Below, in pieces: positions 3,013-42,547 of a stretch of DNA of 42,785 nucleotides. The stretch is from NCBI GenBank assembly GCA_015661395.1, contig JACWML010000001.1, positions 83,273 through 126,057 on the forward strand, in the 5' to 3' direction. The notes under the pieces were generated by a model, which did no database searches, was not told the origin of the DNA, and saw only the letters and a list, made by a program, of their open reading frames with translations. Made by a program: the position numbers and the translations under genes. The stretch's first letter is position 1; each line of letters opens with the position of its first letter. This DNA comes from Methanomicrobia archaeon. Lineage in GTDB: Archaea > Halobacteriota > Bog-38 > Methanoflorentales > Methanoflorentaceae.

Positions 3013-3714
3013 CTAGGCGTGCGTTATACACGCTCCGTCAAACGAGGCGTGAACGAGCGTGGGCAGCGTGCCCCACGTAGCGAGATTGTTTTGGACGATT
3101 AACAGAGCGCCAAGAATTCCGTTAATGTCCTTTATCGCGCCAAAGGCCGCTTCAGGATCAGTGCTCAAATTGCCAAGCGCCGATGCAGCGGCGTCAGCTA
3201 AACACGCCTTTTCGGCAACGACGCACGCGACATCTGCCGTGCCGAAGCTTATCGACGGACCGACCGTCGCTGAGGACGTGCACACGCCGAGAAAGGGGGT
3301 TGGCCTAATCTTGAATGCAACGTCTTTGAAGGCTGACTCGCCCGCATATATCCCAACGGTAATCTCGCGGTCAGTCGAGAGCGCGATGTCGCCCCCATTG
3401 TCGACGATGGCATAAGATGCACCCTCGTCAACCATTGCCTCAACCGCGAGATCCGCGATAACGCCCGCTACAGCAGCCATTGGGCCTACATTCGCCGCAG
3501 AAGAAGCCATCAGCATGCGGCGCACGATCTCCGGAGGCACCCCGACATACTCATCGAGAGGCTCAAGTGCGAACCGGAAAAAAGGATTGAGTGCGATGAA
3601 ACGCTCTAGCTCGCGTCGGTGAGTGCGTATCGCCTCTTTTGCGTTTTCGATGTGCACACGTGCGTCCGCGACGATTGTGACGACCGTTTGCTTGAGCTGA
3701 AACTTCTCCTTCAT
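3013..3714 (-). CDS. UPF0280/COG2122 family protein (ApbE-like; homocysteine biosynthesis-associated)
   Basis: ASSAANVGPMAAVAGVIADLAVE, IVDNGGDIAL; likely start MKEKFQLKQTVV at 3714; clustered with DUF39 and NIL-ferredoxin genes. Confidence 0.85.
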   Translation of the reverse strand: MKEKFQLKQTVVTIVADARVHIENAKEAIRTHRRELERFIALNPFFRFALEPLDEYVGVPPEIVRRMLMASSAANVGPMAAVAGVIADLAVEAMVDEGASYAIVDNGGDIALSTDREITVGIYAGESAFKDVAFKIRPTPFLGVCTSSATVGPSISFGTADVACVVAEKACLADAAASALGNLSTDPEAAFGAIKDINGILGALLIVQNNLATWGTLPTLVHASFDGACITHA

Positions 3715-4100
3715 TCCTCGGCAGCTTTCAGAGCGCCGTGCGGACACATCGCAATACAGGTCTTGCAGAGCACGCACCGCTTGAGGTTGATCGAAATCGT
3801 TCTGTCGTTCTTGTACTCAAATACCTCAACAGGACAGACTGATACGCACGCGCCACACTGAACGCACTCCGCTTCATCGAATACGATTGGCGTGTCCATT
3901 TCGCGCACCTCAGTCCCGCGTCGCCGGAAGGCTGCAGCAACCTCTTCGACGCGTTCGTCGGGCACGTCGATCACGATTTCCCCGATAGAGGGGTCAACAA
4001 ATGCCCGATCGATGTTGATGCGGACGCCCGTTTCGAGCACGACATCTGCAAGCAGCGGATCCTGCATAATCTTTTGTGAAAACTTCAATATGATCTTCAC
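3711..4100 (-). CDS. NIL domain plus 2x[4Fe-4S] ferredoxin protein
   Basis: CVQCGACVSVCPVEVF and CVLCKTCIAMCPHGAL motifs after an N-terminal NIL-like domain. Confidence 0.9.
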   Translation of the reverse strand: MKIILKFSQKIMQDPLLADVVLETGVRINIDRAFVDPSIGEIVIDVPDERVEEVAAAFRRRGTEVREMDTPIVFDEAECVQCGACVSVCPVEVFEYKNDRTISINLKRCVLCKTCIAMCPHGALKAAEE

Positions 4101-4121
4101 GGATGCCCCCCTGTCCTCAGC

Positions 4122-5615
4122 CTACCTACACGCGAGGAGCTTGCTCAGATCCTCACTCGTGATGATGCCGATGACCGTATTCGTGTGATCGATAACAGGA
4201 AGTGCCGAGATGTTGTGCCGCTCGAGACGCCGTGCGGCGAGGTCGATCGGCTCATCAGGTGTCGCCGTCACGACGCGCCTCGTCATTATTCCTTTCAGGC
4301 TATCGCCTTTGTTTAGCGCAACCGCTTTGGAGATATCGTACGCCGTGACTATGCCGATAAGCTTGTTGCTGGCTGAGATAACCGGCAAGTGATTGACCTG
4401 CCTTCCGACAATAATCTTGGCAGCCTCTTGCACGCTGATCGCTTCACGCACGGTGATGCTTGGCAGCATCACTTCACGCACGAGTGGCACCGCAGAAAGT
4501 TGCTTCATGGGCTTCTGTGTGGCCTGCCGCGGGAGCCGCGCTGTCGGCAGGGCGAGCTCAAACGCGCCTTTTTGTATACGCGCGGCAAGTTCGGTGGCGA
4601 TTTCTTTTGCCTTGAAGAAGCTCGACATGGATGATGTGCGCACTTCCTTGCCATTTAGATCTATCATCCCGGATTTTAGCTCCTCATAGCTAACCGTCTT
4701 TAGTTCTGGCCGCGACCGACGACCGACGCCGTAGTCGAGGATGGTCGTCTTGATATCGGCATCGCTGATGGCAGTTTTTCGCGCAATCCCCTCGTTCAGC
4801 ACAGGAATAGGGATGCCGATGCCTACGTACAGCGACGTGCCGTACTTGTGGAGAATCGCCGCCCTCAGGTAATCGGTGCTCATAGCTTTGAGGTCACCGC
4901 ACACCATAAGCGTGCCAAAGCTGTTCGCCGGGTCGTGCTGCGTCCCGTTGCCGACGACGTACCCCTGCGCACCACACAGAAAGATCCTCGTCCCTACGCC
5001 GATGGTTTCATAGTCCGGATCATTATAGATGGGTGAGAGTGTGCCCGAACCAGAGAACGTCGCGTTTCCGAATCTGGGGAGAAGCGTTCCCATATAGGTG
5101 TAGAGCACTCTGTCAGTGGAGTTGGTTGCCACGTTGTACCGCTGGTAAGCGTTACGCGGATTCAACATCGTCGCTTCGTTAAGGTCAACGATGGAGATGG
5201 GTGCTTCTACGCTGCGGCGTGGATAGCAGTCGGTGGCATAGCCAACAGCCCTCATATGGACTTCTTTGCGGGCCACCAGGTCTTCGATAACGTGCGCACC
5301 GCCGTACTCGAGGCCCCGCGTCTCCGAAAGCTGGGTCGCGCCTATGAACGCGTCAACCGCAGCGACGCCGGCGTACGCCTCGACATCGTTGAGCCACACC
5401 TGACTCATCTTGATGGGCGGATCTGAATGGCCGAAATTCATCCATACGCCGGACGAGCACATCGCACCAAACGTCCCTGTGGTCACGACGTCGACCTCTC
5501 TTGCCGCGTCCTCAGACCCCAGCTCGCCCACGATGGCAGGCATTTCGTCGGCTGTCACAACGTAAACGCTCCCATCGCGAATGCGCTCGTTGATCTCCTC
5601 TAAGCTTTTTGGCAC
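4122..5615 (-). CDS. DUF39/COG1900 homocysteine biosynthesis protein (L-aspartate semialdehyde sulfurtransferase family) with C-terminal CBS pair
   Basis: SLEEINERIRDGSVYVVTADEM start, central FLCGAQGYVVGNGTQH, two CBS repeats (VREVMLPS..., IMTRRVVTATPDEP...). Confidence 0.9.
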   Translation of the reverse strand: MPKSLEEINERIRDGSVYVVTADEMPAIVGELGSEDAAREVDVVTTGTFGAMCSSGVWMNFGHSDPPIKMSQVWLNDVEAYAGVAAVDAFIGATQLSETRGLEYGGAHVIEDLVARKEVHMRAVGYATDCYPRRSVEAPISIVDLNEATMLNPRNAYQRYNVATNSTDRVLYTYMGTLLPRFGNATFSGSGTLSPIYNDPDYETIGVGTRIFLCGAQGYVVGNGTQHDPANSFGTLMVCGDLKAMSTDYLRAAILHKYGTSLYVGIGIPIPVLNEGIARKTAISDADIKTTILDYGVGRRSRPELKTVSYEELKSGMIDLNGKEVRTSSMSSFFKAKEIATELAARIQKGAFELALPTARLPRQATQKPMKQLSAVPLVREVMLPSITVREAISVQEAAKIIVGRQVNHLPVISASNKLIGIVTAYDISKAVALNKGDSLKGIMTRRVVTATPDEPIDLAARRLERHNISALPVIDHTNTVIGIITSEDLSKLLACR

Positions 5616-39277: not shown

Positions 39278-39564
39278 GCTATTACTCGCAAGTCTTCATC
39301 GTCGGAAAACCCAGTTGTCCTCAACCTTGGTACGTCGTAACACAAGGGCTATTAAGGGGACGCCAAATCCGCCCCCGACAACCCAATTGCGCTCTTCATA
39401 GGCGCGCTCAATCGGTAGGTGAAGTGCTAAAAAAGCTCCCGGCCTCCGGACCTGCGATTTTGTTGGCCCGGAACCCGATTTCGTAGATTTGTGCGGCTAG
39501 CTTTTTTGCCTGTTAAGTACCTTATTCGATTTTTTTTAGCTTCTCTCAGGGAGTTCTGTAGAAA

Positions 39565-39866
39565 AAAGTTGGCGCTGTTCCCTATATCCCCTTCAAGAAA
39601 GGGACGACAGGAAGAGCGAAGAACGCTCCGACGTGGAAGAAGATATATCACTACTTCGAGTTCAGGAATGAAGAATTCTTAGAGCGCTACCATAAGCGGA
39701 GCAACGCGAGACGACGTTTCATATGATAAAGAGCAAGTTTGGCGACGCTGTGAGAAGCAAAACGGAGGTTGCTCAGGTTAACGAGGTGCTGCTAAAAGTG
39801 CTGTGCCACAACATCTGTGTTGTGATACAAGAGATGTTTGAGCTGGAGATTGAATTCAGCTCTTAA
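39565..39866 (+). mobile_element. 3' remnant of a DDE transposase gene, frameshifted
   Basis: KVGAVPYIPFKKGTTGRAKNAPTWKKIYHYFEFRNEEFLERYHKRSNA / ETTFHMIKSKFGDAVRSKTEVAQVNEVLLKVLCHNICVVIQEMFELEIEFSS*; -1 shift near 39707; no upstream transposase sequence. Confidence 0.85.
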
Positions 39867-39879
39867 CTCCTTACTCAAT

Positions 39880-40377
39880 CTAGCCTTCGTTCTTAGTTAT
39901 GTGTTCCTTTAGGATTTCATAAAGGAAGTCACAGTTCTTTCCTGCAGCCTTAAATCTTAAAGTCTGCTCGTTTGTCAGTATTACCGACAGAGAGAGTGTT
40001 GATGATGCAGATGCGGCAGTCTTGTTGTAGTAGTCACCCTCAAAATCTTTAAAATCGTAGTCCTTTTTTTGCACGGTCCAAGATTGTACTCGGTTTTTCA
40101 GGTTGACCAGAGTCATATGGTCTTCGGTAAGGAAGTCCTGCATTTCCCACCAGCGCTTTTCTGAAAAGAACCACAAGTTCTCAAAATGGATTTTATCATC
40201 TTTAATGTAGTTTGTAATGAAGATATCACCAATTTCGTCGCCGTAAAGCTTCTCGTACTGCCTGATCAAATCCGAAACGCGACTTGAACATTGGATAGCT
40301 GCTCCAATCTTGAGCATATACTCGTTCAATGCAAATACCGTAGCCTTGTCCATGATACCTTGAACAATCTCTTGCAA
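39880..40377 (-). CDS. Hypothetical protein; start uncertain (TTG at about 40377, or frameshift from ATG at 40417 across A7)
   Basis: QEIVQGIMDKATVFALNEYMLKIGAAIQCSSRVSDLIRQYEKLYGDEIGDIFI...; removing one A gives MIEVKNLQVSLSALQEIVQGIM... Confidence 0.6.
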   Translation of the reverse strand: MQEIVQGIMDKATVFALNEYMLKIGAAIQCSSRVSDLIRQYEKLYGDEIGDIFITNYIKDDKIHFENLWFFSEKRWWEMQDFLTEDHMTLVNLKNRVQSWTVQKKDYDFKDFEGDYYNKTAASASSTLSLSVILTNEQTLRFKAAGKNCDFLYEILKEHITKNEG

Positions 40378-40476
40378 AGCGCTTAAACTTACCTGTAAGT
40401 TTTTTTACCTCAATCATGTATCGCTCCTACACGTTCTGTTAAAAAGTCAACACCGTGTTAAAAAATCGCTACCAAC

Positions 40477-40518
40477 CCTTTCTTAACAACCCATTCTTAA
40501 CAACGCTCATTTTAACAG
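40477..40518. repeat. 14-bp-period direct repeats (CCCTTTCTTAACAA / CCCATTCTTAACAA / CGCTCATTTTAACA)
   Basis: CTTAACAAC at 40482 and 40496, TTTTAACAG at 40510. Confidence 0.6.
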
Positions 40519-40772
40519 CACCAGATCGAACCAGATCCAGATCGAGGCTTTGTCAGACGTGTGTAGATTAAGTGCAAAGGTTAGCATGGTTGTCAAAAGG
40601 GTATTATTAAAAATGGGTTGGTGAGTTCGGTTTACCCTAGTCAACAAGAGAGAGCACAATGTTACTTCAAAATCTTTATAAACACTCTAAGCATTTTCTA
40701 AGTAATTCTTACAATAATTCGTTACAAAGGATTTTATCTAAGCTTTGTCCGTGCGGAGACAAGGAGTTTACT

Positions 40773-41702
40773 ATGGCATCTCAAGAGGTAATTAGCGAAG
40801 TGATACCTCTAATCGAAGAAGCGTATTTTGTTAAGACAGACAAATTTAAAAACTATGGTTTTACGGTAACAAATCTGCACAAGAGCCTGTTCAAACTCAA
40901 AAAAGAACTTCCAAACAACGAACAGATACAAGAAATCCTCCCATATTACTGGTATCTTTACGGCCCCTATTCCGAAGTTGTTGCTAAAGCAGCTGAACGA
41001 ATGGAGTCTGAAGGACTGTTAATGAGAGAGCAAAATGTGCTTTATCTAAATCGCGACAAAGTAACGCAAGAAGTGCCCGTAGATAGAGATGTGAGAAGGG
41101 GATTTAACTCAGCACTCAAACATTTTAACCCCACCAATGCTACTCCGTTCATAGAACGGATTTACAAAGAGTATTCACCGTATTCTTTCATGCCAGCATT
41201 CAAAATTGATTTTGTGAATACAATTAAAGAGTATATATCAAATCTAACGTTAGGCCAAATCACATTAGATGATTATTCAGATACTTCAGTACTGAGGGAC
41301 AGTATATTTGAGTGTGAGACTGAACTACCTCCCCATCCTCTTTTTGACCAATTTAATACGCTGTTTTCTTCGTTCACAACAGATGCTCTTCGCGTATTCA
41401 ACTATTTAAGAGAAGTTGACAAAGATGCTATTTTATTAAATAAAGTCCTCAGAATGGCTGAGGATACTGTGTGGACAACTTTTGCGTGTGGCATCCGGAT
41501 TGTCGAGCATGACCCCCCTTATGCCACGAGATTAAAAAGATGGAATCCGATGTACAGTGACTCCTTAAGCGAACTTTCTTCGCAGGTTCGAGCATTTCGC
41601 TCAGACGTTCTGTCAACCATTAGAGGGACGTTGCGTTGTGAACAGGATGAAAAATCGCAGAAGTTTTTGTCAACAGTCATGCAAAAAACACTTAGCAGAT
41701 GA
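40773..41702 (+). CDS. Panacea-like/winged-helix domain protein, putative PIN-toxin partner
   Basis: AAGGAG RBS then ATG 40773; KFKNYGFTVTNLHKSLFKLKKELPNNEQIQEILPYYWYLYGPYSEVVAKAAERMESEGLL; stop abuts next ATG. Confidence 0.65.
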   Translation: MASQEVISEVIPLIEEAYFVKTDKFKNYGFTVTNLHKSLFKLKKELPNNEQIQEILPYYWYLYGPYSEVVAKAAERMESEGLLMREQNVLYLNRDKVTQEVPVDRDVRRGFNSALKHFNPTNATPFIERIYKEYSPYSFMPAFKIDFVNTIKEYISNLTLGQITLDDYSDTSVLRDSIFECETELPPHPLFDQFNTLFSSFTTDALRVFNYLREVDKDAILLNKVLRMAEDTVWTTFACGIRIVEHDPPYATRLKRWNPMYSDSLSELSSQVRAFRSDVLSTIRGTLRCEQDEKSQKFLSTVMQKTLSR

Positions 41703-42422
41703 ATGAACTTCGACTATTTTTTTGACTCTAATATTTTGATTGGTTCTAGACTGTCGTGGGATGCCCAATACGAAGTCGCGTGCGATTGTGTCGATAAGCA
41801 ACAAATAAAGAAACGTACGAGTGATAACGTTTACTGGGAGAGTTCATTCAAACTTGAGAAAGTTAGACAGGTAATTTGGACGTTCTTAAAAGAGATTCTA
41901 AATAACTCATTTAAATTCAATCCTTGGAATTTTGATAGTAAGATTCACAGCCGCAAACTTAGCTTTTTGAAAAGGCAGTATCCAACGAAAGAAATACGGG
42001 AAGACGCGGAAGACATACTGAATCCCTTCTTAGACAAATATGGGCACAATATGAGAGATTCGATACTCAACAATGATGAGATAAAGTGCTGCAAAATGGC
42101 CGAAGACTCTGTAAATAACGCCATTAGTTCCTTAGATGTTGATTGTTTTGCACACCCAAGCGCTAAGATTGAAATGCACGTTGTCACTCCGCAAGACATT
42201 AAGCATTACGCTTCAAAAGAAAGAGCATTGCAGAAAAAAATCAGCGATAATTCTGACATTTTGATACTTTTAGATTCGTATCATATCAAACAAACTGTTA
42301 CTGGAAACAACTCAATTTGTTTTGTAACAACTGATAAAGAACACATATCGGATAATAGCGGGGATATAGAAAAAATTCTGGTTGGGGTGCGCATCAGAAA
42401 CCCAAACGAAAAACCACTTTGA
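41703..42422 (+). CDS. PIN-like nuclease domain protein
   Basis: N-terminal FDYFFDSNILIG, C-terminal SDILILLDSYHIKQ and ICFVTTDKEHI: the acidic-residue layout of PIN folds; 0-nt gap to upstream gene. Confidence 0.65.
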   Translation: MNFDYFFDSNILIGSRLSWDAQYEVACDCVDKQQIKKRTSDNVYWESSFKLEKVRQVIWTFLKEILNNSFKFNPWNFDSKIHSRKLSFLKRQYPTKEIREDAEDILNPFLDKYGHNMRDSILNNDEIKCCKMAEDSVNNAISSLDVDCFAHPSAKIEMHVVTPQDIKHYASKERALQKKISDNSDILILLDSYHIKQTVTGNNSICFVTTDKEHISDNSGDIEKILVGVRIRNPNEKPL

Positions 42423-42547
42423 ACTATCGGACCCTTAAAAGGGAGGATAACGGCTCTCACCTCCGCATGTTCTCCATCGCCTTCTTCAGCAACCCCAACG
42501 CTTAATATGCTAAAAGTGATACATTTACCTGTACTGGTCCAAAAAAG

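Follow-up and report, generated by a model that had tools for sequence, protein, structure and literature searches.

Panacea-type antitoxins have been surveyed with a Pfam model applied at its gathering cut-off (PMC8832971, main text). According to the main text of PMC10440598, C-terminal helices on the Panacea core block a toxin in other PanAT systems, and the Panacea domain itself is proposed to act as a sensor. As far as these main texts go, PIN toxins are not listed as Panacea partners: the main text of PMC8832971 names none, although its supplementary tables may hold an entry; that of PMC10440598 pairs PIN toxins with RHH and ImmA-type antitoxins, Panacea not being among them; and that of PMC2701414 lists other PIN-associated antitoxins, without GepA/Panacea. 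Here we describe a two-gene locus in which a Panacea-type protein is directly followed by a PIN-like protein. It lies in the window, that is, the whole stretch of 42,785 nucleotides of archaeal DNA that was analysed.

We regard the pair as a variant within the PanAT systems (PMC8832971, PMC10440598) and not as a separate kind. It shares with them the two-gene organisation with the predicted antitoxin first, the Panacea-type domain, an extra helical part in the antitoxin, horizontal mobility and ties to transposons and islands; it differs in that the predicted toxin is PIN-like and the Panacea domain lies below Pfam detection. VapBC modules also place a PIN-type nuclease directly after its partner gene, and the order of the catalytic acids is the same. 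However, the toxin here has ~240 residues and a helical insertion, as against ~130 residues in VapC, and its partner is a 309-residue Panacea-type protein rather than a short VapB of the AbrB, RHH or Phd type; VapBC was rejected on this misfit of toxin size and antitoxin type. The families PIN_8 (PF18476) and PIN_12 (PF16289) have a PIN fold with a large insert, as gene 2 appears to, and are weakly matched by its relatives, but all these matches are sub-threshold and restricted to the N-terminal part, and pairing with Panacea is not in the definition of either family. The preliminary description of this DNA considered a Panacea-PIN pairing in this architecture to be undescribed. As far as the main texts of PMC8832971, PMC10440598 and PMC2701414 go, the pairing is indeed absent; PIN families with large inserts, on the other hand, already exist.

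Organisation of the locus

The two genes abut, as had been described, the stop codon of the first running directly into the start codon of the second (...AGA TGA, then ATG AAC...). The features of the pair and its upstream region are as follows.

40470..40530, + strand: short repeat TTAACAAC..TTAACAACNCT..TTTAACAG upstream of the pair, common to other accessory genes of the genus
40675..40682, + strand: TATA-like box TTTATAAA, inferred archaeal promoter of the pair
40761..40766, + strand: Shine-Dalgarno-like AAGGAG, followed after 6 nt by the gene 1 ATG
40773..41702, + strand: gene 1, predicted antitoxin, 309 aa (open reading frame, relatives, hhalign)
40824-41192, + strand: N-terminal Panacea-type domain of gene 1, residues ~18-140
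41193-41699, + strand: helical C-terminal part of gene 1, residues ~141-309
41703..42422, + strand: gene 2, predicted PIN-like nuclease toxin, 239 aa (open reading frame, model, Foldseek, family profile)

A longer gene 1 frame is open from an alternative ATG at 40659. The start was placed at 40773 because of the AAGGAG site, the N-terminus of all relatives and the position of TTTATAAA downstream of 40659. The TATA-like pattern has two matches in the window, against 0.5 expected, and no Rfam family was found in the locus region.

Copies of the ~50-bp repeat occur at G000:C46:71211 (G000 being the window's own genome), G003:C4:49015, G003:C9:21516, G003:C18:156815 and several times on G006:C155. 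Its neighbours in the genus are AT-rich accessory genes, which read as toxin-antitoxin pairs, restriction-modification genes and proteasome-like proteins. The repeat might serve as an operator or for recombination.

Gene 1 encodes a diverged Panacea-type protein

Direct family searches were almost silent for both proteins, PDB sequences yielded no relatives, and identity was therefore sought through relatives in other genomes. For gene 1, the direct Pfam search returned no family of note. PF13274 (SocA_Panacea) gave no match to the protein at E values up to 10, nor to any of 10 members of subfamily 1, the group delimited by the genome scan described below; lying below the gathering cut-off, the window gene thus falls outside the survey criterion of PMC8832971. 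Also, no AbrB, RHH, Phd or HTH Pfam domain was found in gene 1 or in the subfamily 1 partners. Profile-profile comparison was more informative: with hhalign, a ten-protein gene 1 profile matched archaeal SocA_Panacea-type proteins at 97.3% (E 2.6e-11) over residues 18-140, while reversed and shuffled gene 1 profiles stayed below 1% against Panacea. This bears out the proposal of a Panacea-like partner. The LHKSLFKLK...-type region on which that proposal drew is present too, although it had been quoted one residue short; the true reading is LHKSLFKLK...EILPYYWYLYGPYSEVV. Residues 141-309 are predicted to be helical, but the AlphaFold model of gene 1 is too poor for use (mean pLDDT 52).

The PADLOC protein PDC-M19A matches the same N-terminal domain (E 2.2e-5, profile positions 20-123 of 294) and does so in 9 of the 10 partners. 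The candidate system PDC-M19 was nevertheless rejected, only the Panacea-type half being matched and the C-terminal half of PDC-M19A remaining unmatched. When the PADLOC DarG model was compared with the partners in alignment A3, 8 of 10 were weakly matched (best 1.9e-4; NCBIfam DarG, 0.14), hinting that part of DarG may be Panacea-like, which we offer as a lead only. Elsewhere, Panacea-domain or Panacea-like genes overlap genes that read as HD-phosphohydrolase-like (L050 3817-5683, L052 3593-5478), which would be a further uncommon type of partner. A further candidate Panacea-PIN pair (L053, G019, 3095-4561) was dismissed: its first gene is Panacea-like at 91.9%, and its second reaches 1.9% against PIN profiles. 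By motif reading alone this second gene has PIN-like motifs, and a separate Panacea-nuclease pairing is possible there.

The gene 1 family also has uses outside the pair, since a solitary paralogue without a PIN gene is found in the same genome (L020 5275-6189, G000:C26) and in the sister genomes (G001, G003, G005). In several genomes of the genus it adjoins an apparent DNA primase small subunit gene, as if domesticated.

Gene 2 has the signature of a PIN-like nuclease

The acidic motifs that had suggested a PIN nuclease (FDSN, LLDSYH, TTDKEH) are all there, and gene 2 is PIN-like by motif, model and profile. The predicted metal-binding acids are located as follows.

41724..41726, + strand: D8, first predicted metal-binding acid (FFDSN), invariant in 25/25
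41838..41840, + strand: E46, second predicted metal-binding acid (TSDNVYWE), invariant in 25/25
42255..42275, + strand: D185 and D191 (SDILILLDSY), third predicted acid, both invariant in 25/25
42333..42335, + strand: D211, fourth predicted acid (VTTDKEH), invariant in 25/25

These five residues were compared across 25 diverse family members, and D191 aligns with the third acid of VapC. The gene 2 model is of good quality (mean pLDDT 81, pTM 0.75) and has an order of strands and helices that fits PIN. A helical insertion of ~100 residues splits the predicted PIN domain between E46 and the C-terminal acids; in the model it is formed by helices between residues 41 and 147. In Foldseek searches the most probable match among solved structures was VapC (0.92; E 0.57, not significant), and among viral models a PIN like domain protein (0.96; E 0.09, not significant).

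Gene 2 gave nothing above threshold in direct family searches, and Pfam PIN matches across the family were sub-threshold (best 0.00096). By contrast with shuffled profiles, which reached at most 0.1%, the profile of the 25-member PIN family matched archaeal VapC at 91.2% (E 1e-6). The predicted fold of gene 2 looks PIN-type.

The pair recurs and its two genes appear to travel together

Among the 394 genomes of the phylum, strong gene 1 homologues occur in five besides the window's own, and in 5/5 of them gene 2 lies directly downstream on the same strand and in the same order. A scan of GTDB genomes recovered nine loci, which constitute subfamily 1, in Methanomicrobiales-type methanogens, Ca. 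Methanoperedens and Halobacterium; every scan locus not cut by a contig end carries an adjacent PIN gene, broken in two cases. Named hosts of the pair include Methanomicrobiaceae, Methanocorpusculaceae, Methanoculleus, Ca. Methanoperedens and Halobacterium. Within subfamily 1 the pairwise identities of the two proteins correlate (r = 0.98), a value attained in 0 of 5000 permutations, and the relationships do not follow taxonomy: identity is 78-84% between L023 and L024, which belong to different families, but about 60% between L022 and L023, which share a genus. Such co-divergence together with relationships crossing taxonomy is the signature of two genes travelling together. As asked of PanAT systems, the two genes lie within 100 nt of each other in at least two species. 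At least ten diverged loci share the two-gene arrangement, so that the pairing goes beyond chance. Most other copies stand alone among ordinary genes, many of them on chromosomes, and no pair was found in the plasmid, phage and virus records and viral contigs searched. We conclude that this is a conserved family, probably of toxin-antitoxin modules, and not a one-off, and that it is apparently undescribed.

A wider PIN family with Panacea-type partners

A second group of PIN genes (subfamily 2), from methanogens of the phylum, lies directly downstream of genes for Panacea proteins of ~340 aa that are confirmed by PF13274 (e.g. 2.1e-11 for L065). The subfamily 2 PIN proteins match those of subfamily 1 at 96.0% (E 3.9e-9), and no homology was detected between the C-terminal parts of the partners of the two subfamilies (0.9%). 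A third group, from haloarchaea and others, matches subfamily 1 through both its partner (98.9%) and its PIN protein (99.0%); its PIN protein also matches that of subfamily 2 (99.3%), and its partner matches Panacea at 90.0%. These profile matches across the three groups indicate one PIN family, tied throughout to Panacea-type partners. The combined PIN profile matches 34 of the 394 phylum genomes and 19 of 136 genera. Thirty loci were fetched with their flanks: 26 were intact or near-intact, two were decayed pairs and two were short PIN fragments, with which no partner was detected. In each of these 26 a partner ORF, identified by profile in 22 cases and by position and motif reading in four, immediately precedes the PIN gene.

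Subfamily 2 appears peculiar in its start codons. In 9 of the 10 loci examined, CTG stands at the expected PIN start, mostly one or two bases past the partner stop and behind a GGAGG-type site, and none of these nine has an ATG, GTG or TTG at that position. Two of these loci do carry an in-frame TTG, but it falls within the partner gene, eleven codons ahead of the motif. In the tenth locus, the orthologue L140, the place of the CTG is taken by GTG. These sequences are most simply read as CTG initiation. A fusion by programmed frameshift is disfavoured, as the frame offset varies from locus to locus. PIN genes that apparently start with CTG are those of L064-L066, L068-L070, L076, L131-L134, L136-L139 and L141. 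Gene callers, for which CTG is not a start codon, would truncate or miss such toxins, which may have helped to hide them.

The pair lies in an island at a variable site

The surroundings of the pair in the window agree with the AT-rich island and transposase remnant noticed earlier. GC content is ~39% from 40 kb to the end of the window, against 50-57% in most of the window, and the remnant, at 39571-39853, corresponds to the 3' end of a SWIM-type transposase gene. The island comprises the following features in addition to the pair.

39531: left boundary of the island; synteny with the sister genome G005 stops at 39530
39571..39853, - strand: remnant, 3' end of a SWIM-type transposase gene, with intact copies elsewhere in the genome and in sisters
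39880..40417, - strand: frame-broken ORF, cargo and not transposase, paralogue of a gene on contig C83 of G000
42469..42499: 31 bp that match (93.5%) the 3' end of a different SWIM-type transposase gene, from a sister genome
42664..42785: end of the contig, identical over 122 bp to the end of contig C83 of G000

The paralogue of the frame-broken ORF on G000:C83 is full-length, and each of the two stands beside a transposase end.

The contig ends 363 nt past gene 2, and an artefact or chimera of the contig end was considered. It was rejected on the 122 exact bases shared with C83, which carries the rest of the island (~3.4 kb) and the right flank common to G005; that C83 leads back into a flank shared with a sister genome indicates that the AT-rich contig end belongs to this genome. 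The bases of G005 just past the end of synteny align to C83, and G005 thus appears to be an empty site, with two Ns at the junction where an assembly join is possible. Another sister genome, G006, has the same flanks around a different island of ~12 kb (L116, G006:C155, 559-12599), whose cargo reads as two Panacea + RelE-like pairs, a type I methylase, another methyltransferase and SWIM-type transposases. Judged from these alignments, the site is an island hotspot with empty and alternatively filled states.

Proposed function and alternative explanations

Based on the gene order and its conservation, the co-divergence, the Panacea homology, the PIN-like signature and the mobility, all of which are read directly from the sequences, the pair is probably a bicistronic, horizontally mobile module of the toxin-antitoxin type with gene 2 as toxin and gene 1 as antitoxin; it is most likely type II-like, and perhaps serves in virus defence. 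We infer its RNase activity, the neutralisation and the domain responsible, the trigger and the benefit (defence or addiction) along the following lines. Gene 2 would be a metal-dependent PIN-fold ribonuclease with D8, E46, D185/D191 and D211 as predicted acids, and gene 1 its antitoxin, whose coding sequence comes immediately before and is translated first. Within gene 1, the C-terminal helices probably block the nuclease, and the Panacea-type domain at the N-terminus probably serves to sense a trigger or to set stability; this division is drawn by analogy with the PanAT work (PMC10440598, main text). Loss or triggering of gene 1, as when a virus enters or the island is lost, would let the PIN enzyme cleave cellular RNA, and growth would stop. 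Counting against this reading are the non-significant Foldseek E values and sub-threshold Pfam PIN matches, the poor gene 1 model, the solitary gene 1 paralogue, and the failure to find the pair in the plasmid, phage and virus records searched.

Within the toxin-antitoxin reading, the benefit may take different forms. Antiviral abortive infection, in which the Panacea-type domain would sense infection and free the nuclease, is a tentative possibility. It is favoured by the type I methylase and other Panacea modules in the same-site island of G006, by the PADLOC matches of a candidate defence protein to most partners, and by the sensor role proposed for Panacea in the main text of PMC10440598; however, those matches are limited to the Panacea-type half, and most other copies are not surrounded by anything but ordinary genes. 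A slightly less likely possibility is selfish addiction, in which the module would stabilise the island or other mobile DNA and play no part in defence. It is favoured by the patchy, horizontally moving distribution, the GC content below that of the flanks and the transposase remnants alongside; against it, the plasmids and viruses searched yielded no copy and many copies stand alone on chromosomes.

Other explanations would do without a toxin. PIN domains also act in RNA maturation, and the pair might be a non-toxic RNA-processing unit in which the PIN protein would mature or degrade particular RNAs, with gene 1 as its regulator or substrate adaptor. The solitary gene 1 paralogue, whose place on the chromosome is conserved, agrees with such a role, but patchy distribution, transfer between families, insertion at a hotspot and tight pairing fit a toxin-antitoxin module better, which makes the processing pair improbable. 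Least probable of all is that the window copy is a decayed remnant without function: the adjacent island genes are indeed broken (the transposase remnant and the 39880-40417 ORF), but neither ORF of the pair is shortened, none of the catalytic acids is lost, and promoter-like and ribosome-binding-like sites are in place.

Implications for archaeal toxin-antitoxin systems

Extending this reading to all three groups, we lean slightly towards a phylum-wide, undescribed archaeal toxin-antitoxin or defence family that combines diverged Panacea-type sensor-antitoxins with large-insert PIN nucleases and has been hidden by the Pfam cut-off and the CTG starts. The locus widens the range of partners of Panacea-type antitoxins to include PIN nucleases. 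It also extends the Panacea-type antitoxin domain past Pfam detection into methanogens, anaerobic methanotrophs and haloarchaea, in which few defence or toxin-antitoxin systems have been characterised. With its empty and alternatively filled sites, the hotspot is a place to search for further archaeal defence genes. Finally, the three diverged groups, in which one PIN family is joined to Panacea-type partners, constitute a natural test of whether Panacea senses or neutralises.
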